From: Fischerella sp. CENA71
GTDB lineage: Bacteria; Cyanobacteriota; Cyanobacteriia; Cyanobacteriales; Nostocaceae
Assembly: GCA_024239075.1 (NCBI GenBank)
Contig: JANBVI010000063.1
Span: 62,001-126,000, forward strand
Reading direction: 5' to 3'
Length of the DNA stretch: 64,000 bases
Below, in pieces: positions 14,064-55,772 of the stretch. A program made the position numbers and the translations under genes. Under the pieces are notes generated by a model. That model had not been told where the DNA came from, made no database searches, and was given only the letters and a program-made list of their open reading frames with translations. Numbering within the stretch: the first letter of the stretch is position 1; each line of letters starts with the position of its first letter.

Positions 14064-14693
14064 ATGAATGATTTAGAAACACTAAGTGAGGATAATTTTA
14101 CTCACGCATTAAATGTACTCGCAGCAAAAGATCCAGACCTTGACTACATTCTCAATACTTTTGGCTTACCCCCATTATGGTTACGAGAACCAGGTTTTGC
14201 TACTCTAATTCAAATCATTCTCGAACAACAAGTTTCTCTCGCTTCAGCAAAAGCAGTTTTTGAAAGATTGCAAGCAAAAATCTCACCAATTACTCCTGAA
14301 AACTTTTTTCAACTTGATCATACAGAATTAAAAACTATTGGCTTTAGTCGCCAAAAAGCTATTTATGGACGCTTGTTAGCAGAATCAATTATTGCTGGAC
14401 AACTTGATTTAGATATTCTCAACACGATGAGCGATGAACAAGTCCGTAGTGTCCTCAAACAACTGAAAGGAATTGGAGATTGGACAGTAGACATATATTT
14501 ATTAATGGCATTGCGACGACCAGATGCTTTACCAAAGGGAGATTTAGGGTTAATACTAGCAATCCAAAAAGTGAAGAAATTAGCACAACGACCTACACCA
14601 CAAGAAATCGAAATTATTGCTGAGAATTGGCGTCCTTGGAGAGCAGTAGCAACGCGGTTGTTGTGGCACTATTATCTTAATCGCAAAGTTTGA
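14064..14693 (+). CDS. DNA-3-methyladenine glycosylase (AlkA/HhH-GPD family)
   Basis: Removes alkylated bases such as 3-methyladenine to start base-excision repair. The helix-hairpin-helix is LKGIGDWTVDIYLLMAL at about residues 134-150, followed by the GPD-type catalytic aspartate in LPKGDLGL. Length 209 aa is the short bacterial form that lacks the extra N-terminal domain of E. coli AlkA. It lies 96 bp before ada on the same strand, so the two form an alkylation-repair pair. Confidence 0.9.
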   Translation: MNDLETLSEDNFTHALNVLAAKDPDLDYILNTFGLPPLWLREPGFATLIQIILEQQVSLASAKAVFERLQAKISPITPENFFQLDHTELKTIGFSRQKAIYGRLLAESIIAGQLDLDILNTMSDEQVRSVLKQLKGIGDWTVDIYLLMALRRPDALPKGDLGLILAIQKVKKLAQRPTPQEIEIIAENWRPWRAVATRLLWHYYLNRKV

Positions 14694-14789
14694 CCGCAAG
14701 ATTCAGATAGATTGAGTTTGTTTGCTTTGCTTATGATTGGGGGTGTGGGTGAGTGATACAAATTCTCCATGTGAAATTGTGATAAATCC

Positions 14790-15851
14790 ATGCATGAAGC
14801 AGAGTTTTGGCAAGCTGTATTAAACAGAGATACTCGCTTTGATGGTGTATTTGTGTATGCAGTGCGCTCTACCAGTATATATTGTCGTCCATCGTGTCCT
14901 ACACGCAAGCCGCGAAGAGAGCAAGTTGTTTTCTTTCCTTCGTCCCCAATAGCTGAGGATGAGGGTTTTCGTCCGTGTCGGCGCTGTGATCCTCAAAACC
15001 CAATAGACCCGCAAACAGAAATGGTGCGGCGTGTGTGCGCTATTATCGAAGCCAAACCGACAGAGTCACTAACTTTAGCAACACTCAGCGCTCAGGTGAA
15101 TGTTAGCCCTTTCCACTTGCAGCGAACCTTTAAGCGAGTTATGAGTGTGACACCTAAGCAGTATATACAAGCACAACGTATGCAAAGTTTGAAGTTAGAA
15201 CTTAAAAGCGCAAGTAGTGTCACAGATAGCATTTATAATGCAGGCTATGGCTCAAGTAGTCGTCCTTACGAGTGTGCAAAAACACAATTAGGTATGACTC
15301 CTGGTACGTATAAACGCGGCGGAAATGGTATGGTAATCAACTACATGATTGTAGATTCTGCTTTGGGCTACTTGCTGGTTGCTGGTACTGAATATGGAAT
15401 TTGCATGGTGAGCCTGGGTAATTCTGATACAGAATTAGAAACTGCTTTGTTCAAAGAATTTGCGACTGCTAAGATTTACCGTTGTGAGCTACATGAAGAT
15501 AACTTGAGCAAGTGGGCGATCGCTCTCTTACAATACCTCAATGGTGAACAACCGAGTTCCCATCTCTCAGCATTACCCCTTGATTTGCAAGCTACAGCTT
15601 TTCAAGCCAAAGTTTGGCAAGCTTTGCGTCAAATTCCCAGTGGTAGCACACAAACATATAGTGAAGTTGCTCAATCTATTGGTCAACCCAGTGCAGTTAG
15701 GGCTGTGGCGCGTGCTTGTGCGACAAATCCTGTGTCGTTAGTTATCCCTTGTCATCGCGTCGTTCGTTCTGATGGTAGCTTGGGTGGTTATCGCTGGGGT
15801 ATAGAACGCAAACAATTTTTGATAACACAAGAAGCAGGGACTACTTTTTAA
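14790..15851 (+). CDS. ada: Ada-type methylated-DNA repair protein and transcriptional activator
   Basis: Transfers methyl groups from damaged DNA to its own cysteines and, once methylated on the N-terminal Cys, activates alkylation-repair genes. Domains in order: zinc-binding phosphotriester domain with C32/C36 (IYCRPSC) and the pair FRPCRRC; AraC helix-turn-helix (VSPFHLQRTFKRVMSVTPKQ); O6-methylguanine transferase domain with the active-site motif VIPCHRVV. At 353 aa it has the full size of E. coli Ada. The neighbouring alkA homologue is a likely target. Its stop overlaps the convergent DUF4278 gene by 4 bp. Confidence 0.94.
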   Translation: MHEAEFWQAVLNRDTRFDGVFVYAVRSTSIYCRPSCPTRKPRREQVVFFPSSPIAEDEGFRPCRRCDPQNPIDPQTEMVRRVCAIIEAKPTESLTLATLSAQVNVSPFHLQRTFKRVMSVTPKQYIQAQRMQSLKLELKSASSVTDSIYNAGYGSSSRPYECAKTQLGMTPGTYKRGGNGMVINYMIVDSALGYLLVAGTEYGICMVSLGNSDTELETALFKEFATAKIYRCELHEDNLSKWAIALLQYLNGEQPSSHLSALPLDLQATAFQAKVWQALRQIPSGSTQTYSEVAQSIGQPSAVRAVARACATNPVSLVIPCHRVVRSDGSLGGYRWGIERKQFLITQEAGTTF

Positions 15852-23008: not shown

Positions 23009-24250
23009 ATGGCAGACTGGCATGAGATTACTGGTGGTGTGACTGCACCCAGAGGGTATCGGGCATCTGGAATTAAGGCGGGATTGAAACCTTCAGGATT
23101 GCCAGATTTGGCGTTGATAGTATCAGATGTAGAAGCGATCGCTGCTGGGGTATTTACAACCTCTCAAGTGAGGGCAGCATGTGTAGATTATTGTCGCCAA
23201 CATCTGCAAGCAAAGCATAACGCCCGTGCTATTCTCTGCAACGCCGGACAGGCAAATGCTGCGACAGGTGAGCAAGGTTGGTTGGATGCGCTAGAATCGG
23301 CGATGGCGATCGCTCAAGCCTTACATCTCCGCAGTGATTCGATCCTACTGGCTTCGACTGGGGTAATTGGACAGCGTCTACCAATGGATAAACTCAAAGC
23401 TGGAATTCCCCAACTAGTAGCAGCACTATCTGAAACTGGTTCCGATGCTGCCGCAGGTGCAATCATTACTACAGACTTAGTACCAAAATCAATTGCCCTA
23501 GAAACAACCATAAGCGATCGCCCAGTCAGAATTGGTGGTATCGCCAAAGGTTCGGGGATGATTCATCCGAATATGGCTACTATGCTGGCATTTGTCACGT
23601 GTGATGCAGCCGTTTCCCCTCATCTTTGGCAGCAGATGTTGAGTAGGGCTGCTGATAGAAGCTTTAATTCGATTACCGTTGATGGTGATACTAGTACCAA
23701 CGATAGCTTAATCGCTCTTGCCAATGGTGAATCCCGCACCCCAGCAATTACGGAAATGGGACACGAAGCTGAAAAATTAGAAGCGATGTTAACAGCAGTG
23801 TGTCAGCATTTAGCAAAAGCGATCGCCCGTGATGGCGAAGGTGCAACTTGTCTGGTGGAAGTGCAAGTAAGTGGCGCACAAGATGAACAAGCAGCACGTC
23901 AAATTGCCAAAACTATTGCTGGTTCTTCTTTAGTCAAATCTGCAATTTTTGGACGCGATCCTAACTGGGGAAGGATTGCAGCGGCTGCGGGACGTGCTGG
24001 CGTACCTTTTGAACAAGAAAATTTGAGAATTCAGTTAGGGGATTTTTTAATGATGGAAAATGGCCAACCCCTAGCTTTTGACAGGAAAGCAGCAAGTGAA
24101 TATCTACAAAAAGCTGCTGCGGGTGCTTATCTTAAAGAAGATACCGTATTAATTTCTGTAAGTATAGGCAATGGTCATGCTTCCAGTAAAGCTTGGGGTT
24201 GTGATTTAAGTTACGACTACGTGAAGATAAACGCTGAGTATACGACTTGA
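23009..24250 (+). CDS. argJ: bifunctional ornithine acetyltransferase/N-acetylglutamate synthase
   Basis: Recycles the acetyl group in arginine synthesis: transfers it from N-acetylornithine to glutamate, and may also make acetylglutamate from acetyl-CoA. The autocleavage site is in KGSGMIHPNMATMLAF, where the precursor is cut before the Thr of MATML to give alpha and beta chains, with that Thr as nucleophile. The start ATG follows AAGGGGGAAATC, a good ribosome site. Length 413 aa matches the family. The gene follows the tandem RNA array by about 130 bp. Confidence 0.96.
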   Translation: MADWHEITGGVTAPRGYRASGIKAGLKPSGLPDLALIVSDVEAIAAGVFTTSQVRAACVDYCRQHLQAKHNARAILCNAGQANAATGEQGWLDALESAMAIAQALHLRSDSILLASTGVIGQRLPMDKLKAGIPQLVAALSETGSDAAAGAIITTDLVPKSIALETTISDRPVRIGGIAKGSGMIHPNMATMLAFVTCDAAVSPHLWQQMLSRAADRSFNSITVDGDTSTNDSLIALANGESRTPAITEMGHEAEKLEAMLTAVCQHLAKAIARDGEGATCLVEVQVSGAQDEQAARQIAKTIAGSSLVKSAIFGRDPNWGRIAAAAGRAGVPFEQENLRIQLGDFLMMENGQPLAFDRKAASEYLQKAAAGAYLKEDTVLISVSIGNGHASSKAWGCDLSYDYVKINAEYTT

Positions 24251-24857
24251 GTTCAAAGGGAACAGGGAAGGAACAGTTACCCACGGTATAACTTTAGTTA
24301 ATAGAGACGTTGCACTGCAACGTCTCTACAAGTTTTAAAACCGCTATACCCCTATACCTCCACACCCATTTTCAATCTATTAAATAAGGGCTAAAGCCCT
24401 TACTACAAACTGATCAAAAATAGTGTATTGGAATAATAGTTAATATATAGCTAAAAAAAAGCCTATAAGTTTGTTTTCTGCCAAAATGCCATATCTTAGC
24501 GAATTTATCCTGTTATTCTCACTGTTTTTTGTAGATGGAATTGGATAGATCATTAGGGAGCATCTTATGAAATTTCAAGCTTTTGGGCAGCATCTTACTA
24601 ACATCGATAGTGATGGGCGTGGCAGTGGCAGGTAAGGAGAAAACTATCAATGTTGGGATGAATTTAAGATATTTTCTGTTAATAAAAAACAGATTTTGAT
24701 TACCAATATTAGTTAGTTGAAGACTACAGTATTGACTACCTCCCAAAATTTTTTGTGAATCAAATGCATAATTTTATGAGGCTATAAATCCTCGTAAAAT
24801 TATGCATCAGGGCTAAAGCCGCTGACTACGAAAAAACTTTGTGCCTTTCAATTCTTA
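24251..24857. other. intergenic stretch with palindrome and possible gene remnant
   Basis: No intact gene is seen. A perfect-arm palindrome AGAGACGTTGCA/TGCAACGTCTCT lies at 24303-24327. At 24567 an ATG AAA TTT start is followed, one frame over, by residues like a signal peptide (LLGSILLTSIVMGVAVAGKEK), which suggests a frameshifted remnant of a small secreted protein gene. Two copies of GGGCTAAAGCC-type motifs (24388, 24810) are part of common dispersed repeats. Confidence 0.45.
24303..24327. repeat. AGAGACG palindrome
   Basis: AGAGACGTTGCA and TGCAACGTCTCT form 12-bp arms around one base. The AGAGACG...CGTCTCT ends match the inner palindromes of the elements at 28784-28924 and 54184-54296 and the block at 34598-34653. 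Confidence 0.75.
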
Positions 24858-25121
24858 CTATGCCGCATCTCTTAGTTGTGCTTTTTCGTTGACATCGGTA
24901 ACATTCAAAGATAGTTGTTCGGCGTAAGGTACAGCTGCTTGTTCTAAAATTTTGACTTCGATATTCACACTTACCAAATAGCTACCTGTGTCAGCACCAA
25001 CAGCCTCAGTCACTAGTTTGGCAAGATCAGGACGTTTGGCTGTTAGTGGATCGCGTAGAATACACCGATCCCAGTCATGTTTAGCAGTTGGATTGAGGCT
25101 GAGGATGTAGTGCTTAATCAT
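24858..25121 (-). CDS. hypothetical protein, 87 aa
   Basis: I do not recognise a family. The frame can be extended upstream to 25232, but the residues before MIKHYILSLNP look non-coding, so I start at 25121. The protein is soluble with no repeated motif; it reads as a small alpha/beta domain (HYILSLNP, GSYLVSVNIEVKILEQAAVPYAEQ in separate parts). It lies between a repeat-rich spacer and the MscS gene, all on the minus strand. Confidence 0.55.
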   Translation of the reverse strand: MIKHYILSLNPTAKHDWDRCILRDPLTAKRPDLAKLVTEAVGADTGSYLVSVNIEVKILEQAAVPYAEQLSLNVTDVNEKAQLRDAA

Positions 25122-25321
25122 AGTGGCAAACCTTGATCCATCTCCAAAAGTCTGTCTAGTCTGAGAAAACGTGAAAGGGAAAAGGTAAAGGGATGATAAA
25201 ATCGTTACCCCTTTATCCTTTCCACATTTCACATCGTGAATCCTCTTTTATTATAGTACATAAGTACTAAAAACAAAAAGTGAGGAGATGGGTAGTTGAC
25301 TAATAGATTAACCACCAACAA

Positions 25322-26974
25322 TTAATGACCATTGACCGTTGAGTGTTTCTCCTTGACTTTGGACTCTGAACTAACTAACATTTGACCATCATTTACCCAG
25401 ATGGCTTGTTGGGGGACGGGAATAGAAATTCCGGCATGATCGAGAGCGATTTTGAGACGGCGGCGAAACTCGCGCGCTACATCCCATTGCTTGAGGGGTT
25501 GAGTTTTGATCCAGACACGAATTAATAAACCGCGATCGCCAAAGTTATCGATTCCCAAAACTTGGGGTGTTTCGACAATTTTGTGTTGCCATTCTGGATC
25601 TTCATCCATTTCTATGGCAACTTTCTTAATTAAATTCAAAGCCTCGTCAATATCAGTTTGGTAGTCAACTGGAATGGTTAAATCAGCACGTGACCAACGA
25701 CTAGAAAGATTGGCGACAATTTTAATTTCACTGTTGGGAATGGTGATTAAGCGCCCTTCTGCATCTCGAACTTGCGTCATCCGCAGATTCAGATTTTCTA
25801 CCAAACCTCCCACAGTTCCCACAGAGATCACATCACCTAAAGCGTATTGGTCTTCTAGGATGATCAAAAAGCCGTTAATTGCATCTTTGATCAAGTTTTG
25901 GGAAGCCAGAGATACAGCGACACCAACTAAACCTGCACCTGCTAGCAAAGGAACGACATCTATACCTAAGGACACCAGGGCAAATAGAATCCCTACACCT
26001 AACCAAACAATGGTGACAATACTTTTTGTGACACCAGAAATCGTAGAAACTCGTAGTTGGAGACGTTCAGAAGTTTCTGGAGTTAGTAAAGCGCTACTAC
26101 TGACAAGAGCAGAAGTGAAACGATCAATGAGGACATAGCTCAGACGCACCGCTACATAAGTGCCAATTGCTACAGCGCCTAGTTTCACAGGAATTTGCAA
26201 ACCCAAAAAAATTCCTAACTGGAGCGATCGCGTGTAGGGAAATAAGCCCAGAATAAACAAACCTCCACCTCCCCAAATCCCTACTTGGGCGATCTGATGC
26301 AGTCGTTTCTGGACTTCTTGGATATGACTTTGTTGCTGTTTATTTAATTGCAGTGTAATTGGTCTAGCTGTTGGTGAAGCGGTAGCAGAAGCTAGCTGTT
26401 GTTGGATTGAGTTCCTTTGTGAGCGGTTTTTCCACTGAGTCAGTCCCCAACTGATAGCAAGGATAGTAAGTCCACATCCAACAGCAATTGCACCCTGACG
26501 GACTAAAAACTCTGGTTCTCGCTCTTGTTTTGCTTGTTGTAATTGTTCTCGTAAGCTATCGGAAATTTGCTTTGCTAATGTTAAAGCATCTACCTGTCGC
26601 AATCTGGCATCTTGGTCAGTAATCGTCATTACCTGTTGGTTGTTGACATAAATTACTGGCAATCCGTTTTCAGTCTTAACCTGCACATCCAAATTGGCAT
26701 CAGGATTTTGAAAGTAATTTTGGCTAATTTGATTAACATTTTGCTGGATATTCTCTAGACGCTCCGTAATGTTCGCCCTTGGTGCGGTGATCTGAAATAA
26801 ACGCCTACCATCCAAATAAACCCAACCTGTAACTGTTCTGTTGTCAGAGTCACTACTCCGCAGATTTGGGGGTTGCAGGTTCGGTATAAAAGGAATCTGC
26901 GCTGTAGCTTGTGGCATTACTCCAACAGTGACGACTATTGAAGAGAAAGCGATCGCTACAAATCGAGAGCGCAA
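25322..26974 (-). CDS. MscS-family mechanosensitive ion channel
   Basis: An inner-membrane channel that opens under membrane tension to release solutes on osmotic downshock. A signal peptide and a periplasmic region of about 130 residues (coiled-coil-like ENIQQNVNQISQNY) precede four or five membrane spans. The pore-lining helix is LLAGAGLVGVAVSLASQNLI and the MscS core continues with DQYALGDVISVGTVGG and the beta domain (LITIPNSEI). Length 550 aa places it with the larger MscS/YnaI-like forms. Confidence 0.92.
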   Translation of the reverse strand: MRSRFVAIAFSSIVVTVGVMPQATAQIPFIPNLQPPNLRSSDSDNRTVTGWVYLDGRRLFQITAPRANITERLENIQQNVNQISQNYFQNPDANLDVQVKTENGLPVIYVNNQQVMTITDQDARLRQVDALTLAKQISDSLREQLQQAKQEREPEFLVRQGAIAVGCGLTILAISWGLTQWKNRSQRNSIQQQLASATASPTARPITLQLNKQQQSHIQEVQKRLHQIAQVGIWGGGGLFILGLFPYTRSLQLGIFLGLQIPVKLGAVAIGTYVAVRLSYVLIDRFTSALVSSSALLTPETSERLQLRVSTISGVTKSIVTIVWLGVGILFALVSLGIDVVPLLAGAGLVGVAVSLASQNLIKDAINGFLIILEDQYALGDVISVGTVGGLVENLNLRMTQVRDAEGRLITIPNSEIKIVANLSSRWSRADLTIPVDYQTDIDEALNLIKKVAIEMDEDPEWQHKIVETPQVLGIDNFGDRGLLIRVWIKTQPLKQWDVAREFRRRLKIALDHAGISIPVPQQAIWVNDGQMLVSSESKVKEKHSTVNGH

Positions 26975-28656
<1,682 letters not shown>

Positions 28657-28727
28657 TCTTTACCGAGAATTTACCAAAAGCCACTAAAGAAAAGCTTAAG
28701 CTATAGCTAGGTTTTCTAAGGCTATTG

Positions 28728-28765
28728 CCTTGGGGTAGGCGCTCCGCCTATCCCTTTTTTTTGTT
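28728..28765 (+). terminator. rho-independent terminator after ahcY
   Basis: GGGTAGGCG-CTC-CGCCTATCCC stem (28734-28756) followed by eight Ts. It lies about 75 nt after the ahcY stop. Confidence 0.75.
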
Positions 28766-28783
28766 TGTTGGTTGGTTGTTGGT

Positions 28784-28924
28784 CAATACGATTTGGATAA
28801 GACAAATCGATTAACATTTAATCCCACCAGAGACGTGCCTTAGCGAAGCCATGCGCTATAGCCCTATTGGCACGTCTCTACATACCCAAATTGTGACGAG
28901 AATATTCTTAACTGAACCGTATTG
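28784..28924. mobile_element. MITE-like element, copy 1 (141 bp)
   Basis: Terminal inverted repeats CAATACGATTTGGATAAGA (left) and the complement of CAATACGGTTCAGTTAAGA (right) enclose an inner palindrome AGAGACGTGCC...GGCACGTCTCT. The same ends and the same inner palindrome are found at 54184-54296. No coding capacity is present. Confidence 0.8.
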
Positions 28925-29102
28925 GGTGGTTGGTGGTTGGTTCTGGCTTGATCACCCAATATTTCGCCAGATATCTTTGATGAATTTCCGGCAATATTTT
29001 AATAATTAGAACGTACCATTAAATACAATCATAAGTCTTCTAGGTTACCAACAATTATTTCATTTCATTTAACCAATCTTAATATTTTCTCAAAAAATTC
29101 GA

Positions 29103-29118
29103 TCCGCCGTCAGGCGGA
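29103..29118. repeat. GC hairpin 50 nt after the TIR-FGE gene
   Basis: TCCGCC-GTCA-GGCGGA, a 6-bp stem with a 4-nt loop, in an AT-rich setting. On the minus strand it is followed by TCGAATTTTTT, so it can be a terminator. A short stem with 4-nt loop downstream of a variable region is also a known feature of retroelement target genes. Confidence 0.5.
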
Positions 29119-29167
29119 AAAGAGAAAAAAACAAGTGTAAAGGGCAAGAGGAATAAAGGATAAAGGG

Positions 29168-29299
29168 CTACTGAAGAGACCTCCCGACAGCACAGACAAC
29201 ACGAAAACCGTTGCGGTAGTAGATGTTGTCGCGCCCCGCCCTAACGTAGTAGGTGCGATACGCAGAACGGCAGTGTACAGGATAGTAGTTCCAGGAACC
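29168..29299 (-). other. candidate DGR variable region and invariant 3' segment
   Basis: From GGTTCCTGG the codons read AAC TAC TAT CCT GTA CAC TGC, CGT TCT GCG TAT CGC ACC, TAC TAC GTT AGG GCG GGG, CGC GAC AAC ATC TAC TAC, CGC AAC GGT TTT. Tyr, His, Thr, Val and Arg fall where templates normally have AAC or AAT, and each differs only at the A positions (one GTA excepted). Codons for Cys, Arg-Ser-Ala and Gly-Phe are kept. The tail 29171-29209 lacks variable-looking sites and would be the IMH-like part. Confidence 0.65.
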
Positions 29300-30529
29300 G
29301 CCCCGCAGCACGGCATATCCTTGTTTTTGAAAAAGATCATCATTATTATCAAACCAAGGAGTACCATCTGTAGGCGCACCTTCATAGTTCTCATGCCAAT
29401 CGTCGAGACACCATTCCCATAGGTTTCCGTGCATATCGTAAAGTCCAAAATAATTGGGCGGAAAGCTTCCTATTGGGGTTGTTTGCTCTCTATAATTTCC
29501 CTTGGAACCATTACCATAAACATAGGTAGCATCATAATTTGCTACCTCATCTGTGATTGTATCGCCAAAGTAAAAAGGAGTCGTCGTACCTGCACGACAT
29601 GCATATTCCCATTCTGCTTCGCTGGGTAGTCGATAATTACGACTTGTTTTTTGGGAAAGTCTAGCACAGAATTCTACTGCATCGTACCAAGAAATATTCT
29701 CTACAGGAAGACGGTCATTACCCATGAAGTAAGACGGTCTTGGTTTTAACTGTCTATTGACTGGAGGACAAGAATTGACAACTCTATCCCATTGTTCTTG
29801 AGTGATGGCATATTTCCCCATAAAGAAGGTTGGGACTGTTACGTGATGTACGGGGCGTTCAGAATCCTTGCTTTCTTTCTCACTCTCATAAGCGCCCATC
29901 AAAAATGTACCACCAGGAATTTCAACCATCTCTAGCTTGACACCAAACCCCAAATCCTCTACAAAATAATTGGCTTGATGCTCGTAAAAATTACTTTTAA
30001 TTATAGATTTTCCAGAAGAATCCCTTTCTACAGATAATTTCACTGTTTGGAAATCAAATGTTTGCAATTTTAAGGAAGGATTTTCTTTTGGTTTATTTAT
30101 ATAATTACTGTTTACGCCTGCTTTTATAAGTGCTGCAATAATATCATCAACAACTTTATCAAGTCCTTTGGAAGTATTGGATGCAAGTTTGCCAGCAATA
30201 ATCGGAGAAAACTTCAAAACTTCCTGATGTGAAACATTACGCCAAATTGGCAGTATGACTTTTCCAAAGTTTATTTCCTTCTGCACAAGCCCTTCTAACT
30301 CAGATTTTGGCCATGACTTGCTCATAAAATTAGGGCTGATGACAATTATTCCAAACCTGGATTCTGAGAGTCCTTTATTAATTGACTCACTTAAGTTGTC
30401 TCCTACTGTCAAAGAAAATTCATCATACCAAACACGATACCCTTTGTTTTGCAATTTCTCAGCTAGTGGTCTAACAAAATCTTTATCTTCACTGGCGTGA
30501 CTTATAAATATGTCATGTTCATAGTCCAT
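29168..30529 (-). CDS. TIR domain - FGE-sulfatase/C-lectin fold protein, probable DGR target
   Basis: Residues 1-140 are a TIR domain (DIFISHASEDKDFVRPLAEKL; GIIVISPNFMSKSWPKSELEGL, with the Glu of SELE at the place of the NADase Glu). After a linker, residues 205-450 are a formylglycine-enzyme-like domain (VEIPGGTFLMGAYESE; RLPSEAEWEYACRAGT; GLYDMHGNLWEWC; LRGGSWN). The first catalytic Cys of true FGE is absent from GGSWNYYP; only one Cys (VHCRSA) remains, so it is likely a binding domain. The last 45 codons match the layout of a diversity-generating-retroelement variable region. No reverse transcriptase is nearby. A role in sensing with TIR signalling is inferred. Confidence 0.88.
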   Translation of the reverse strand: MDYEHDIFISHASEDKDFVRPLAEKLQNKGYRVWYDEFSLTVGDNLSESINKGLSESRFGIIVISPNFMSKSWPKSELEGLVQKEINFGKVILPIWRNVSHQEVLKFSPIIAGKLASNTSKGLDKVVDDIIAALIKAGVNSNYINKPKENPSLKLQTFDFQTVKLSVERDSSGKSIIKSNFYEHQANYFVEDLGFGVKLEMVEIPGGTFLMGAYESEKESKDSERPVHHVTVPTFFMGKYAITQEQWDRVVNSCPPVNRQLKPRPSYFMGNDRLPVENISWYDAVEFCARLSQKTSRNYRLPSEAEWEYACRAGTTTPFYFGDTITDEVANYDATYVYGNGSKGNYREQTTPIGSFPPNYFGLYDMHGNLWEWCLDDWHENYEGAPTDGTPWFDNNDDLFQKQGYAVLRGGSWNYYPVHCRSAYRTYYVRAGRDNIYYRNGFRVVCAVGRSLQ

Positions 30530-30883
30530 AATTACGACTGTTCAGTACGTATATTATGATAAAGAGTTTAAACCAGATTTCTCACAAATCCTGATAAATA
30601 GGGAGCAAAAACTGGCAAAATTAGTTCCGCCACAATTCATGCGGATGCAGCTCGCGAATCAAGGGTGACATTTTTCATCAACGATAAATCAATTATTTTA
30701 AGGTGATTCTAGGACGCGATCAATCGCGTCCTTAACCTTATATATGGATACACAAACAAGCGATCGCATGATCAATTTTGTCTCGAAAAACCAATAAAAT
30801 CGTTGTGAGTAGGAATAATACTCATCATTCGCCAGCAGTGTATCCTTTCAGAAGTGAGGAATCTAAATCAAAATTAGCTGAAT
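30530..30883. other. intergenic stretch with palindrome
   Basis: Between two minus-strand genes. The AT-rich part next to 30530 should hold the TIR-FGE promoter. A perfect palindrome AGGACGCGAT-CA-ATCGCGTCCT lies at 30711-30732, flanked by TAAGGT/ACCTTA that extend the pairing, a dispersed-repeat type hairpin. A HIP1 site lies near 30760. Confidence 0.6.
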
Positions 30884-31759
30884 CTAAGCCGCAGACAAAC
30901 AAAGAGGGGTAGGTTTAGAACCTACCCCCAATTCTTCAGGTATTTTTCTGCCAACTGCTGCTGCTACTGGTTTTAAACTTTCAACTAAATCTGCCATATC
31001 TTCTAAAGACAAAGCTTGACGGGCGTCGGAAACAGATTTTTCTGGTTCTGGGTGACATTCAATAATTAAACCATCTGCACCACAAGCAACAGCAGCTCTA
31101 GCGACGGGTGCTACTAATTCCCGTTTACCGACTGCATGGGAAGGATCTACAATCACGGGTAAGTGGGTGATTTGCTTGAGTGCTGCTACTGCTGCTAAAT
31201 CCAAGACGTTGCGGGTATAGTTATCGAAACTGCGGATACCCCGTTCACACAGCACAACATCTGGGTTGCCGTGGCTTAAAATATATTCGGCTGCCATGAC
31301 AAATTCTTCAATTGTTGCTGCTAAACCACGTTTGAGGAGAATGGGTTTACCTGCTTTTCCTAAAGCTTTGAGTAAATCGAAGTTTTGCATATTGCGGCTA
31401 CCTACTTGTAGCATATCAGCGTGGGTGGCGATCGCTTCGATTTGAGAAATTGACATGACTTCAGTGACAACAGGAAGATTGTAACGCGATCGTACTCCTG
31501 CTAAAATCTTTAATCCCTCTTCTCCCATTCCTTGAAAAGCATAGGGAGAAGTGCGGGGTTTGTAGACACCGCCACGCAATGCTTGAACAGACGCAGTAGA
31601 TAGCTTGTGGGCAACAATCTCCATTTGTTCAGTACTTTCAACCGTGCAAGGCCCCGCAATCACCACTATTTCTTGCCCACCAAAAGCAACTGTTTCGGAA
31701 ATTTTCACAATGCTTTGGTGGTGGGGATGAGGTTTGACGGCTAATTTGGCGTTGATCAT
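30884..31759 (-). CDS. aroF: 3-deoxy-7-phosphoheptulonate synthase (DAHP synthase, type I-beta)
   Basis: First enzyme of the shikimate pathway: joins phosphoenolpyruvate and erythrose 4-phosphate. Core motifs: [50 protein letters not shown], and [16 protein letters not shown]. At 291 aa it lacks the N-terminal regulatory extension of other classes, so control of the pathway must come from elsewhere. The start at 31759 is chosen because AAGGAG lies 9 nt upstream and residues after it match the family; the frame open to 31840 runs through the leader. An aromatic leader peptide and terminator precede it. Confidence 0.95.
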
Positions 31760-31838
31760 CTTCTTGTTCTCCTTAAAAATAGAATAATGATGGTAGTTAA
31801 TAGTTGTTAGTTGTTCTAAAAAAGAAACAACAGAAAAC

Positions 31839-31869
31839 AAAAAACCCGGAACTTAATCAAGGTTCCGGG
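31839..31869 (-). terminator. attenuator terminator in the aroF leader
   Basis: On the minus strand: CCCGGAACC, loop TTGATTAA, GTTCCGGG, then TTTTTT. The left arm can instead pair with AAGTTCCGGG (31899-31908), which is formed by the last codons of the leader peptide gene. It ends 80 nt before the aroF start. Confidence 0.85.
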
Positions 31870-31895
31870 TGCTGGCGTTTCATCGACATGACACT

Positions 31896-31955
31896 TTACC
31901 CGGAACTTATTCTGGGCCAAAAATAAAAGTAAAACCAGCTACCGAAGTAAATCAT
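31896..31955 (-). CDS. aromatic-rich leader peptide of aroF, 19 aa
   Basis: The ORF reads MIYFGSWFYFYFWPRISSG: three Tyr, four Phe and two Trp among 19 residues, eight of them packed in positions 3-13 together with Gly and Ser. A strong ribosome site AAGGAG lies 12 nt before the ATG, identical in context to that of aroF. Its last four sense codons contain AAGTTCCGGG, the alternative partner of the terminator arm, and the stop codon directly follows. This is the layout of a ribosome-controlled attenuator sensing all three aromatic amino acids: stalling on Tyr/Phe/Trp codons would free the antiterminator, whereas reading to the stop would cover it. Confidence 0.85.
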   Translation of the reverse strand: MIYFGSWFYFYFWPRISSG

Positions 31956-31972
31956 GACGATGGAATTCTCCT

Positions 31973-32053
31973 TAAAAAACAAAAACCGCAGAGTTCGCTC
32001 TGCGGTTCACCGGGCGGTTTCCATTAGGAAACTTAATTCACTCCCGGTGAACC
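31973..32053 (-). ncRNA. structured RNA with terminator upstream of the aroF leader
   Basis: On the minus strand: an 11-bp stem GGTTCACCGGG/CCCGGTGAACC encloses a hairpin GTTTCC-TAAT-GGAAAC. The stem runs directly into a perfect 10-bp terminator AACCGCAGAG-CGAA-CTCTGCGGTT followed by TTTTTGTTTTTT. The AACC at the stem end is shared with the terminator arm, so the two compete over 4 nt. It could be the end of a separate small RNA or a first control layer ahead of the leader peptide, whose ribosome site starts right after the T-run. Confidence 0.65.
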
Positions 32054-32629
32054 ACCCTAAACCAATAGTAAAAGTAGAAGTTACTGCTAAACATAACGCG
32101 AGGTGCTTTATTGAAAAAATTTATCTAGACCTATATCCAAGAACAATAACAGACGATGTGAGCATAGTCAATACTTTTCCGGAGAAAGTTAAGAAGGATA
32201 GGAAAATGCAAATATCGAGAGTGAGAGTGAGAATAGAGAAGTATAGAATATCTATTTCTTTAGCTACGTAAGTCAAATGTAGAGAATAAAGTAGCAGACC
32301 CCACAATTCTCAAAAAAACGATAAACTCATTACAAAGCTGGGGTTTCAGACTATACCTTTATGTACATGTCAACCAAATTGTTGTTATACATATCCCTTT
32401 GATAAATTAAGATGGCTGTGTTAGTGTGCCAACATAATTTAACAGGAAGTAGCTATATTAAATGGTGAATAATTAGTAGTTAATGGTTAGTATTTAATAA
32501 TGGGTAAGATTTCAAAGCCTTTCGTTTATACAGTAGCTAGTAAAACAAAATCATTAATACCCAACAACCAACAATTACCAATAACTAACAGTTTTGATTT
32601 ATTTTCGGCTGAATTCTAGTGATTGTATT

Positions 32630-33121
32630 ATGCCTAGCTCCAAAACCAACATTCTAGCCACATCATTTGACTATAAAGGAGTTTATTCATGCCCTGTTTG
32701 TCATGTTGGTAAGATTAGTAATATGCCATTGATGGAAGCAATGTCTTGTGATTTTTGCCATCAGATTTTCACTGTTAATTTAGAACAACAGCAATTAATT
32801 TTACCTTCTAGACAACCTCCTTTAATTTGGCGTTGGAATGGCTTTAACTGGACAGAAGCTCATTTAGAAGGGGTAGAATTTGGTTGGAGTTATGTAGTGG
32901 CAGCAATCGCGTTTATACTGTTGCCGACTGCTTTAATTGGGACAGTTGCTTACATTTTTCCGCCACATCCATATGCTCCTTTATCTTGGGTTCCATACAT
33001 CTGGACAGTATTAACTTTTATCTCACATTTCACAATTATTGTTTGGCTTTTAATTGAAATTTATCAAATTCCAGTTAGGGCATATTTACGAGCTATTCGA
33101 CAACGTTTAATCGGTCGTTAA
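32630..33121 (+). CDS. conserved-looking membrane protein with Cys pair motif
   Basis: 163 aa. An N-terminal zinc-ribbon-like module has two CxxC pairs (YSCPVC and MSCDFC) 23 residues apart. This is followed by two membrane spans (VVAAIAFILLPTALIGTVAY and WTVLTFISHFTIIVWLLIEI) and a basic C-terminus (RAYLRAIRQRLIGR). I know no function. The ATG at 32630 is preferred to a TTG at 32594 because the residues between look random. The 358-bp gap before it (from 32272) is AT-rich and carries only short STRR-like tracts (CCAACAACCAACAATTACC). Confidence 0.7.
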   Translation: MPSSKTNILATSFDYKGVYSCPVCHVGKISNMPLMEAMSCDFCHQIFTVNLEQQQLILPSRQPPLIWRWNGFNWTEAHLEGVEFGWSYVVAAIAFILLPTALIGTVAYIFPPHPYAPLSWVPYIWTVLTFISHFTIIVWLLIEIYQIPVRAYLRAIRQRLIGR

Positions 33122-33163
33122 ATCATAGATTTGTCATTCTCAACAAGGCTTCTGGCTCTTATT

Positions 33164-33192
33164 CTCGTTACCAGGTTCAACCCGGTAACGAG
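33164..33192. repeat. REP-like palindrome
   Basis: CTCGTTACC and GGTAACGAG form 9-bp arms; the inner AGGTTcAACCC continues the pairing with little loop. No T-run follows. It lies between two short + strand genes. Confidence 0.7.
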
Positions 33193-33360
33193 GGCTTGGA
33201 AATTTTCCCTGCCGATACTGTAACTGGTACTTCACCACATTGATTTTGTTCAGATCCCCGACTTCTTTAAAAACTCGGGGATCTATAACCAACTAACAAA
33301 AAAGTGACAGCTTGAGCAATTGTATCGGAAATTACTACTTTCTATTTTCAATAAGTAATA

Positions 33361-33585
33361 TTGCGTAAACATCCAATTGTCGAGCATGTGAAGCAGGTAG
33401 ATCAGCCATTACAAAAAATTTATTATCAAGTTGAGCAGCTAAAACAATTGTTACAATTTTTAGACAATCCTATCAGAGCACAGCAAAAATTTATTGCTAT
33501 AACCGTAGCAAAAGCAACGGAAAAACTGCGAACTTTGGCTGAAATATTCCCAATAGTAGAAACAATAGATAAAGAATTTAGCTGA
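33361..33585 (+). CDS. small helical hypothetical protein upstream of the DnaJ gene
   Basis: Up to 74 aa, all-helical in appearance (QVEQLKQLLQFLDNPIRAQQKF). The longest frame starts at a TTG (33361); a GTG at 33388 is an alternative and there is no in-frame ATG. It lies 49 bp before the DnaJ-pentapeptide gene on the same strand. Support for translation is modest: no strong ribosome site is seen. Confidence 0.45.
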   Translation: MRKHPIVEHVKQVDQPLQKIYYQVEQLKQLLQFLDNPIRAQQKFIAITVAKATEKLRTLAEIFPIVETIDKEFS

Positions 33586-33634
33586 TAGTTGGTTGCATAA
33601 CTCATAATTAAGTTGATTATCACCAATACGTCTT

Positions 33635-34489
33635 ATGAGAGAGCTGGAGCGGTATTATCGGGTATTAGAGTTGGAGCCTGGAGCAACTTTAGAGGAAGTA
33701 AATCAGGCTTACAAAGATTTAGCTTTTATTTGGCACCCCGATCGCATCCCCTTAGATAACCAGCGTCTGAGAGAAAAGGCGCTAAAAAAGTTACAAGAAA
33801 TTAACGAGGCTAGAGAACAATTACGCTCTCTCAAAACTAAGCATCAAGTTCCCCATCATTCTCATCACTACTATCAACCTCGTCAATCTCATCAACCTCG
33901 TCAATCTCGTCAACCTAATCAATCCCATCAATCTCATCAAACCCATCAACCTCATCAATCTCATCAATCTCATCAATCTCATCAATCTCATCAATCTCAT
34001 CAATCTCATCAATCTCATGAACCTAATCAACCCCATCAATCACCACCACCGAAAAAGACAGAAACAAAAACTACGTATACTTCAACAAACCCTCAATCAC
34101 CAAACTATGAACCACCTAAGCAAAACCCAGATTTGAGTGGCCAAGATTTCAGCAGCGCCAATTTAAGCAATAAAGACTTATCTAGCAGAAACATGAGTTA
34201 CGCCAACTTAAGTCGTGCTAATCTCAGTGATACTTTTATGCATAAAGTCATCCTCAGAGGTGCAGATTTATCTGAAGCAAATTTGTTTAGAGCTAACTTA
34301 CTTTTGGCAGATTTGCGAGAAGCCAATCTCCGGAATGCTAACTTGATTGGTGCTGACTTGAGTGGTGCTGATTTGCGGGGTGCTGACTTGACAGGGGCGC
34401 GTGTTCGTTCTGGCGATCGCTTACTTGTAAAATTGATTGGTGCTAACCTCAGTGGTGCGATCATGCCCGATGGCAATATTCACGACTGA
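33635..34489 (+). CDS. DnaJ-domain protein with SHQ tandem repeat and pentapeptide repeats
   Basis: Residues 1-65 are a J domain with the HPD tripeptide (AFIWHPDRIP), which would stimulate an Hsp70 partner. Residues about 70-135 are a His/Gln/Ser low-complexity linker that becomes a perfect tandem of SHQ triplets, encoded by 9-bp repeats. The C-terminal 110 residues are pentapeptide repeats A(D/N)Lxx (SSANLSNKDLSSRNMSYANL; LIGADLSGADLRGADLTGA), which fold as a right-handed quadrilateral helix. J-domain/pentapeptide fusions occur in cyanobacteria; the client is unknown. Confidence 0.88.
   Translation: MRELERYYRVLELEPGATLEEVNQAYKDLAFIWHPDRIPLDNQRLREKALKKLQEINEAREQLRSLKTKHQVPHHSHHYYQPRQSHQPRQSRQPNQSHQSHQTHQPHQSHQSHQSHQSHQSHQSHQSHEPNQPHQSPPPKKTETKTTYTSTNPQSPNYEPPKQNPDLSGQDFSSANLSNKDLSSRNMSYANLSRANLSDTFMHKVILRGADLSEANLFRANLLLADLREANLRNANLIGADLSGADLRGADLTGARVRSGDRLLVKLIGANLSGAIMPDGNIHD
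33943..34020 (+). repeat. 9-bp coding microsatellite (CAATCTCAT)
   Basis: About eight near-identical 9-bp units encode SHQ. The length is a multiple of three, so unit gain or loss changes linker length without breaking the frame. Antisense frames across it produce a false MRL-repeat ORF. Confidence 0.9.
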
Positions 34490-34597
34490 TATATAGTTAA
34501 TTGTTGGTTGTTGATTGTTAGTTTTAAAGGCTAATGGCTAAACAAGCCTAAAATCCCAAGCAATAACCAATGACAAATGACAAATGACGACCCCAAC

Positions 34598-34653
34598 TCG
34601 TAGAGACGAGCCAATAGCGCTGTCGCGCATGGCTTCGTTAAGGCGCGTCTCTA
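34598..34653. repeat. AGAGACG palindromic block, inverted relative to 28784 element core
   Basis: GTAGAGACGAGCCAATAGCG...GGCGCGTCTCTAA. Read on the minus strand it matches the core of the element at 28784-28924, including the stretch CGAAGCCATGCGC and CTATTGGC. The long MITE terminal repeats are missing here. It creates a false extension of the next ORF. Confidence 0.75.
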
Positions 34654-34682
34654 AATTTCTGCCGACTTACTCTAATAAAAAT

Positions 34683-35510
34683 ATGAATATAACAATCATT
34701 GGTTGTGGTTATGTAGGTTCTAAAGTTGCTAGATTTTGGCAGCAAGAACGGGGTTTTATTGTCACTGCAACCACAACTACTCCTGAACGAGTTGCAGAAC
34801 TAGAAACTATTGCTCAACGAGTTGTAGTAGTAAACGGTAACAATGCTGAGAAGCTGAAATCAGTTTTAAAAAATCAAGATGTTGTCCTTTTGAGTGTTGG
34901 AGCAAAAGCCCCTAATACTTATGAAGAAAGTTATTTAGAAACAGCTCAAACTTTAGTTTCAATTCTCAAGCAAACTCCTAGTATTCAACAACTAATATAT
35001 ACCAGTAGTTGTTCTGTATATGGAGAACAAAATGGTGCATTAGTAGATGAAGAAACACAGGTTGCACCCACAACTCCTGGTGGTGAAATTCTCTATAAAA
35101 CTGAGCAAGAATTACTTTCAGCATCTAGTGAGCATCTGCGCGTGTGTGTTTTACGCTTAGGAGGAATTTATGGGCCTGGTCGAGAACTAGTCAAAATATA
35201 TAGCCGAATTGCTGGTACAACTCGTCCTGGAAATGGTGAAGAACCAGCAAATTGGATTCATGTTGATGATATTGCTGCTGCTATAGAGTTTGCCCGTCGT
35301 CATCGTTTGCAAGGGATTTACAATCTTGTTGATCATGACGATCTGACAACTAGAGAAATATCTGATCGTGTGTGTGAAATACATAATCTACCTAAAGTTT
35401 CATGGGATTCTTCCTTAAGTAGCAAGCGTCCATATAATGCCAAGATATCAAATAAAAAAATCAAAGCAGCAGGATACGAGTTTATCCATCCCCAGATGAT
35501 TTTTAGCTGA
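34683..35510 (+). CDS. NAD(P)-dependent epimerase/dehydratase (extended SDR, YeeZ-like)
   Basis: 275-aa Rossmann-fold protein. The nucleotide-binding motif is NITIIGCGYVGSKVARFW at the N-terminus. TSSCSVYGEQNG is the usual serine segment, but the Tyr-x-x-x-Lys pair is not clear (ILYKTEQELL has Tyr directly followed by Lys), as in YeeZ-like relatives. GGIYGPGR and WIHVDDIAAAI are typical of the family. The start at 34683 is the Met directly before the Rossmann strand; the frame continues upstream through a repeat. Substrate unknown. A 21-bp gap separates it from the next gene, so they may be co-transcribed. Confidence 0.85.
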   Translation: MNITIIGCGYVGSKVARFWQQERGFIVTATTTTPERVAELETIAQRVVVVNGNNAEKLKSVLKNQDVVLLSVGAKAPNTYEESYLETAQTLVSILKQTPSIQQLIYTSSCSVYGEQNGALVDEETQVAPTTPGGEILYKTEQELLSASSEHLRVCVLRLGGIYGPGRELVKIYSRIAGTTRPGNGEEPANWIHVDDIAAAIEFARRHRLQGIYNLVDHDDLTTREISDRVCEIHNLPKVSWDSSLSSKRPYNAKISNKKIKAAGYEFIHPQMIFS

Positions 35511-42815: not shown

Positions 42816-42892
42816 TAATTGTGTGTGAGGAGTAAGTTTGAAGTAAAAAGCGTTTGGAGTGGCAACATGGTAACACTCCAAGCGCTTTTTTC
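42816..42892 (+). ncRNA. tandem RNA-like unit 1 after purH
   Basis: TTTAATTGTGTGTGAGGAGTAAGT, then a 13-bp hairpin AGCGTTTGGAGTG/CACTCCAAGCGCT and six Ts (to 42891). The segment GTGTGAGGAGT (42823-42833) is the exact complement of ACTCCTCACAC. A promoter for this copy is not convincing (TAATCT at 42809 with a poor -35), so it may also simply be the purH terminator region. Confidence 0.55.
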
Positions 42893-42967
42893 ATGGCAAA
42901 TTATTGAAGAGAAAAATTTTTTATTTAAGTACTTGTCATCATCAAAAAGTAGTGATATCTTTTAATT

Positions 42968-43038
42968 GTGTGTGAGGAGCAAGTGTAAAACGAAAAGCGC
43001 CTGGGGTGGAAACACGGCAACACTCCCAAGCGCTTTTT
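42968..43038 (+). ncRNA. tandem RNA-like unit 2 after purH
   Basis: Promoter TTGTCA (42933-42938), 17-bp spacer, TATCTT (42956-42961). The expected start falls at about 42968, giving an RNA that begins with GTGTGTGAGGAGC and ends in a hairpin with AGCGC/GCGCT base and a T-run at 43033-43037. The 5' part and hairpin match unit 1, 147 bp upstream; many stem changes are compensated. Confidence 0.65.
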
Positions 43039-43080
43039 GTTTTTTAAAGTTTTTTATTATTAATTGTTTATAATGCAAAA

Positions 43081-55606: not shown

Positions 55607-55772
55607 AACTCGTGATCTAACGACACTAACTCGTGATCTAACGACACTAACTCGTGATCTAACGACACTAACTTGTGATCTAACGACACTAACTCGTGAT
55701 CTAACGACACTAACTCGTGATCTAACGACACTAACTTGTGATCTAACGACACTAACTTGTGATCTAATAACA
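55607..55772. repeat. 21-bp tandem repeat, 7 full copies plus one partial
   Basis: Unit AACTCGTGATCTAACGACACT, with C or T at position 5 as the only common variant. Copies begin at 55607, 55628, 55649, 55670, 55691, 55712 and 55733. As the unit is seven codons, the minus strand stays open and gives a false SLDHELV-repeat ORF. Confidence 0.95.

Follow-up and report, generated by a model that had tools for sequence, protein, structure and literature searches.

A TIR-FGE gene of Fischerella sp. CENA71 with a DGR-type variable region, the remains of a dead cassette and a probable history of rewriting in trans

In this work we describe a gene of Fischerella sp. CENA71 that joins a TIR domain to an FGE domain of the C-lectin fold and ends in a DGR-type variable region (VR). 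According to the reading that we favor, with a probability of roughly three in four, the DGR cassette that once accompanied this gene died in an ancestor, the target was kept and has been rewritten in trans from templates that differ between species, and its product is likely a TIR sensor.

The gene occupies positions 29168-30529 (minus strand) of the window, as we call the whole stretch of 64,000 nucleotides analysed, and is an intact open reading frame of 453 amino acids. Pfam places a TIR_2 domain at residues 7-99 (30233-30511, minus strand; E 1.3e-22) and an FGE-sulfatase domain of the C-lectin fold at residues 200-445 (29195-29932, minus strand; E 4e-57), as expected from the fusion proposed in a preliminary description of this DNA. 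The FGE part matches PvdO and formylglycine-generating enzymes, as well as Treponema denticola variable protein 1 (2y3c, E 6e-20), and carries RGGSW from residue 409, CRSA at 420 and GFRVVC from 441; a C-lectin fold near the C terminus is thereby predicted, with the VR at residues 408-453 of 453. The NAD hydrolase AbTIR is among the nearest solved relatives of the TIR_2 domain, and Glu77 aligns with the Glu of the AbTIR W..YEL motif, which we take to be the catalytic residue. With the conserved Glu present, this is a predicted catalytic (NADase) TIR, and its AbTIR-like sequence suggests an NAD-cleaving enzyme. The protein alone was scanned for defence systems: all 16 PADLOC matches fell inside residues 3-136, none of the named TIR systems (Thoeris, TIR-retron and others) matched the whole protein, and no NCBIfam cut-off was reached. 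By eye, the neighbors of the gene appear to code for S-adenosylhomocysteine hydrolase (27376-28656) and DAHP synthase (30884-31840), and these flanks are collinear in three same-genus genomes. No VMAP, MoxR or vWA genes were seen by eye among the listed open reading frames of 24000-35000.

The last 137 nt of the reading frame (29172-29308, minus strand) are classified here as a DGR VR from the distribution of their differences, which are concentrated at template adenines. The best template found belongs to plasmid3 of Fischerella sp. NIES-4106 (AP018301), and the mismatches to it are at 15 of 34 A and only 3 of 103 non-A positions; in the 110-nt core they are 15/32 against 3/78 (Fisher p = 2.3e-7). 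The non-A mismatches are at VR positions 19, 20 and 42, all differences at positions 43-137 fall on template A, and the final block of 42 nt (29172-29213, minus strand) is identical to the template, as an IMH-like end would be. Such near A-only differences, together with a 3' end identical to that of the template, are what is expected of a DGR variable protein, and the product is predicted to be one. Twelve codons differ from the plasmid3 template at template A only; ten of these are AAY codons, every one with its third base kept, and three further codons have non-A differences, the third lying just beyond the 137 nt. In these respects the preliminary description, which had proposed a DGR-diversified C-lectin domain, variability at AAY codons and an IMH-like 3' end, agrees with the comparison; the VR that it placed at 29171-29299 was correctly located, but is slightly longer.

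No other template came as close. Among 35 template-like sequences (sequences beginning with one conserved motif, taken from the retrieved loci and classed by A content), the next best had non-A mismatches at 9/102 positions, or 8/97 with 12 gap columns, with a median of 18; the template of the UHCC 0926 plasmid also fits poorly (8/71 non-A mismatches, 6 gap columns). The window VR matches the plasmid3 template at TCTCTTCA, where both VRs of plasmid3 itself differ. The template of genome G171 has no non-A mismatch to the window VR up to position 49, and a mosaic of plasmid3-like and G171-like templates leaves none at all. The three remaining non-A mismatches need a second template, an unsampled template or point mutations.

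An ordinary FGE paralogue, with binding residues varied by positive selection and no retroelement involved, could show part of this pattern, as motifs like RGGSW..CRSA..GFRV are common to FGE-fold proteins anyway and paralogues that do not have this VR also mismatch the template often at A. Indeed, three FGE paralogues of the same genome differ from the plasmid3 template at 21/30, 14/29 and 15/24 A positions. However, they also mismatch about one third of the non-A positions (21/67, 22/66 and 25/73, respectively), as opposed to 3/103 in the window VR; this control is limited to those three, and a wider set of 195 FGE-like 3' ends mixes templates, VRs and other sequences. Moreover, among AAY codons in 84 of 136 VRs, changes were found at 1029 of 1958 first and second positions and at 35 of 979 third positions, the latter figure being lowered by the filter of at most six non-A mismatches that kept those 84. 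An avd fragment directly after the gene, described below, is a further argument against plain positive selection, which is hardly credible as an explanation and was rejected.

The genome of the strain contains one DGR-type RT, on contig C74, accompanied by Avd, an FGE target and, downstream, a template. Across the VR core, the VR of this DGR departs from its template at A only, and 66 bp align with the window VR at 77% identity, so that diversification of the TIR-FGE gene in trans by this DGR could be considered. However, in the 110-nt core the C74 template mismatches the window VR at 16/74 non-A positions, besides 14/30 A positions, with 6 gap columns, and has a different 3' end; we hold this donor to be very improbable and rejected it. 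Neither another template fitting the window VR nor a fitting RT was found in the draft assembly, and the gene would not at present count as a remote target of an own-genome DGR. The preliminary description had inferred action in trans and advised a search of the genome for a DGR with a matching template: the DGR exists but its template does not fit this gene, and rewriting in trans is retained as the best reading, with the own-genome DGR rejected as donor. On contig C74 (L017:12164-12661 and 14102-15243, minus strand), the only frame open beside the DGR is a short one of 165 aa, which resembles by eye the C-terminal part of a MoxR-type ATPase; it has no Pfam match, and transposase-like pieces were seen by eye nearby. 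The conflict system at C74 may itself be broken.

It must be taken into account that the assembly is a draft in 95 contigs, from which a plasmid cassette could be absent. The gene would then be an ordinary remote target, with its fitting RT and template on a plasmid or small contig of the strain. Cassettes of this template class are plasmid-borne elsewhere, and in the same-genus genome G003 an avd-like frame, RT, template and VR are found on a contig of 4.8 kb that starts inside a target gene. Against this, no RT or template of the window's class was found in the assembly, and G004, assembled in eight contigs, and other near-complete genomes have such VRs with no fitting template or with no RT. 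We consider this explanation possible, with the odds clearly against it.

The TIR-FGE gene is present in three same-genus genomes (G001, G003 and G004) with 91-94% identity to the window gene, and a fourth, G002, had no match to the TIR part. The four orthologues, one genome each, come from different species. Across them, 40 of 110 columns vary in the VR core and 143 of 1221 in the gene before it. Within the core, variation is found in 27/32 template-A columns as opposed to 13/78 non-A columns (p 2.8e-11); in the gene before the VR, the figures are 39/399 for A and 104/822 for non-A columns. The six orthologue pairs have dN/dS of 0.27-0.62 over TIR residues 1-140 and the FGE part before the VR, and the protein has therefore been kept. 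The target appears to be under purifying selection.

The best-fitting templates differ between the VRs of these species. The VR core of G003 is closest to an A-rich template-like sequence of genome G140, with mismatches at 14/31 A and 1/79 non-A positions. The VR of G001 lacks the same 6 nt as the template of G003, to which it has mismatches at 17/31 A and 3/73 non-A positions, and differs from the G171 template at 2/73 non-A positions but with a 6-nt gap. No template fits the VR of G004 well, that of G171 giving 17/33 A and 7/77 non-A mismatches in the core, and this VR is perhaps decaying. Over the 137 nt, the best non-A mismatches are 5/104 for G003, 13/102 for G004 and 4/98 for G001, the last with the 6-nt gap.

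Directly behind the gene there is the remnant of a cassette. A spacer block with pyrimidine tracts, a hairpin and a T-run (29064-29167, minus strand) is about 80% identical to the block between VR and avd in intact cassettes; its hairpin, TCCGCC-TGAC-GGCGGA (29103-29118, minus strand), has a perfect 6-bp stem. It is followed by an avd pseudogene fragment of about 28 codons (28980-29063, minus strand), which in alignment to intact cassettes has stops at codons 3, 8 and 15. The whole of 28980-29167 matches the UHCC 0926 plasmid over 195 nt at 80%, and when the genome of the strain was searched with the avd-RT-template of plasmid3, C74, the window VR and the avd piece at 29004-29063 were returned. 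No match to an RT or template follows the fragment at the window locus: of the avd, RT and template that adjoin the target in a complete DGR locus, all that remains is the avd fragment interrupted by three stops. The preliminary description had correctly stated that neither RT nor template stands beside the gene, but had missed the avd pseudogene directly 3' of it.

The three avd stops are common to all four orthologues; therefore, the local cassette died before the species split, in their common ancestor. The differences between the VRs came later, and this order of events is the principal reason to invoke rewriting in trans. With Avd as query, tblastn found residues 1-29 at the locus in G003 and G004 (E 8e-8 and 2e-8) and did not find the fragment of G001 at 1e-5, and within the 10-12 kb surrounding the gene it detected no RT in any of these three genomes. 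Indels aside, the sequence after the fragment is related across the four orthologues. The hairpin loop is TGAC in two of them and the reverse complement, GTCA, in the other two, as though the hairpin had been inverted.

Behind all 21 other targets tested, the sequence matches the spacer block over its first 45 nt or more, and in seven the match continues through the hairpin. By the rule used, hairpins are found behind 14 of 39 targets and none of four templates; the hairpin could also be a terminator. Among 79 related loci, other amputated cassettes follow FGE targets, with avd residues 1-33 left at L232, avd 1-56 at L276 and RT 261-329 at L280. The first of these, in Desmonostoc vinosum (L232:3870-4300), was read by eye as an FGE target and then avd codons 1-33 fused to a post-template-like sequence, a cassette deletion with an avd end that resembles the one in the window.

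According to these data, the gene would once have been the target within a complete DGR with avd, RT and template. Disruption of avd and loss of the other cassette parts would have taken place in an ancestor shared by at least four species of the genus, while the target probably stayed under purifying selection. Later, DGR machinery working in trans would have altered the VR at template adenines, the templates differing from species to species, and the last template used in the window genome would have resembled that of NIES-4106 plasmid3. This template may have arrived on a plasmid that was later lost. The variable C-lectin face probably binds a ligand and thereby would switch the TIR domain, which, judging from the families involved, may act as a likely NAD-cleaving sensor in defence or cell death.

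Already diversified VR segments might instead have come from other targets or strains by recombination or transfer, with no retrohoming at this gene. The VR, together with at least 45 nt directly downstream, is common to the targets and would supply homology for such exchange, and DGR cassettes are located on plasmids. However, divergence is concentrated in the VR with both sides conserved, and the diversified residues of the TIR genes of G003 and G004 were not seen by eye in any of the other VRs compared from these two genomes. We regard this alternative as unlikely. Rewriting in trans is the best reading, with plasmid-borne cassettes perhaps as the source.

A search of plasmids for the template class returned 12 records. 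Cassettes of the class found in the window are carried by plasmids AP018301 and NZ_CP117770, in the latter beside parA/parB, and the plasmid3 cassette has an EAD1-VMAP-C gene, an AAA ATPase and an FGE target adjoining avd and the RT. The RT matched two plasmids at 96% and 91% identity, and 95 phage records each below 60%; phages as cassette carriers were left unsupported by these low identities. Tentatively, and with the odds somewhat against it, a mobile and shared mutagenesis service may be envisaged, in which conserved chromosomal receptor genes would keep a docking block (the VR and the downstream element) beyond the death of their own cassette, and visiting plasmid cassettes drawn from the wider population would rewrite their binding sites and leave.

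The spread of the template class was followed in 218 genomes of the family with the inferred template as query, about four candidates being scored per genome. A template-class match was found in 105 genomes, an RT at E <= 1e-50 (some partial) in 57 and both in 47, so that 58 of the 105 matching genomes have no DGR RT at that threshold; in these counts many assemblies are drafts, and the matches include templates as well as VRs. Four of the five best template matches (G171, G003, G066 and G065) are templates beside RTs. The fifth is the template-like sequence of G140 (contig C106, L286, 110768-110894); neither an RT nor avd lies within the 9 kb surrounding it, and it is perhaps a stranded template.

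A smaller set of 37 genomes comprised 34 with assemblies of no more than 10 contigs, chosen for template-class matches, together with G000 (the genome of this strain), G003 and G165. An RT of this family was found at E <= 1e-60 in 15 of them, partial or broken in two (G077 and G110). In the remaining 22 the weak RT matches (43 listed, 30 with their loci examined) proved to be of other kinds or short pieces of DGR RT; the DGR motif IG...SQ was present in none of these 30 loci, most of which had no motif at all by the pattern used. In G103, G112 and G175 the weak matches are short fragments sharing 55-71% identity with the DGR RT. Ten VRs from genomes lacking the RT fit foreign templates with 1 to 8 non-A mismatches and a bias toward A (p <= 8.6e-5), among 30 of 31 VRs scored (that of G110 was left out, as its ends could not be trimmed), each against the best of nine templates by fewest non-A mismatches. 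Another TIR-FGE architecture was seen by eye in G090 (C1:8858365, L129), an open frame of 681 residues with an N-terminal extension, TIR, FGE and a VR-like end; no DGR-type RT was seen in that genome.

Our comparisons with known systems refer to the available portions of the cited papers. Cyanobacterial DGR proteins with TIR-like domains and remote targets have already been published (PMC7517822), and the window gene is like those remote targets in its C-lectin domain, in a VR at the 3' end and in its distance from an RT. However, the targets in the available text of that paper are assigned to a DGR within their own genome, whereas for the window gene the own-genome template fails, the best template is foreign and the gene is followed by a dead cassette. 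The same source describes DGRs on plasmid AP018301, named there as a possible vehicle, and on a plasmid of Anabaena 90, and reports for the PCC 7120 paralogue all3226 a remnant template homology only. In Thiohalocapsa PB-PSB1, as far as the accessible part of PMC10907252 goes, DGR targets are served in trans within one genome and their diversity was measured in natural aggregates. The likeness lies in a TIR in a DGR target and in loci broken by mobile elements; PB-PSB1 targets match a template elsewhere in the same genome, whereas our inference for the window rests on comparison between species.

In the ternary conflict systems with VMAP or MoxR-vWA, as described in the available portion of PMC7159879, the components resemble those of the plasmid3 cassette (EAD1-VMAP-C, AAA ATPase and FGE target), unlike the window gene, which has TIR and FGE in one chain. 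For multicellular bacteria, the parts of PMC10907252 and PMC7159879 at hand interpret DGR targets as the antigen-sensing components of conflict systems that have TIR effectors. At the target site of Bordetella phage BPP-1, according to the portion of PMC3240598 available, the 3' ends of template and VR are identical and a GC-rich hairpin stands downstream, as in the window. However, the stem has 6 bp here as opposed to 7-10, it lies 53 nt after the VR as opposed to 4-34, and the loop TGAC/GTCA does not fit the GRNA of BPP-1; we make no claim that the window hairpin is of the BPP-1 type. Adenine mutation has been described in a cultured Nostoc punctiforme DGR (PMC12691664, part available).

As far as we have searched, three things are new, namely a dead cassette common to the orthologues, a best template from another strain and the 58 of 105 matching genomes in which no DGR RT was found; a literature search on degraded DGR targets and plasmid-borne cyanobacterial DGRs gave no such case recognisable from titles or abstracts, most subscription papers lying outside its reach. 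DGR surveys find targets by an adjacent RT and template, or remote targets by a template of the same genome. Should targets persist after the loss of their cassettes and be served by external ones, these surveys would overlook them, and the receptor repertoire of a strain would be shaped by passing plasmids, a shared form of diversification.

Other features were observed in the window. At 33635-34489 there is a gene for a protein read by eye as J-domain-like and pentapeptide-repeat-like, with a 9-nt tandem array coding for a Ser-His-Gln-rich repeat. Two adjacent Cyano-1 RNAs (Rfam RF01701) are found on the plus strand at 42819-42893 and 42966-43042, and a 21-bp tandem array of 7.7 copies with 97% match is located at 55607-55767.
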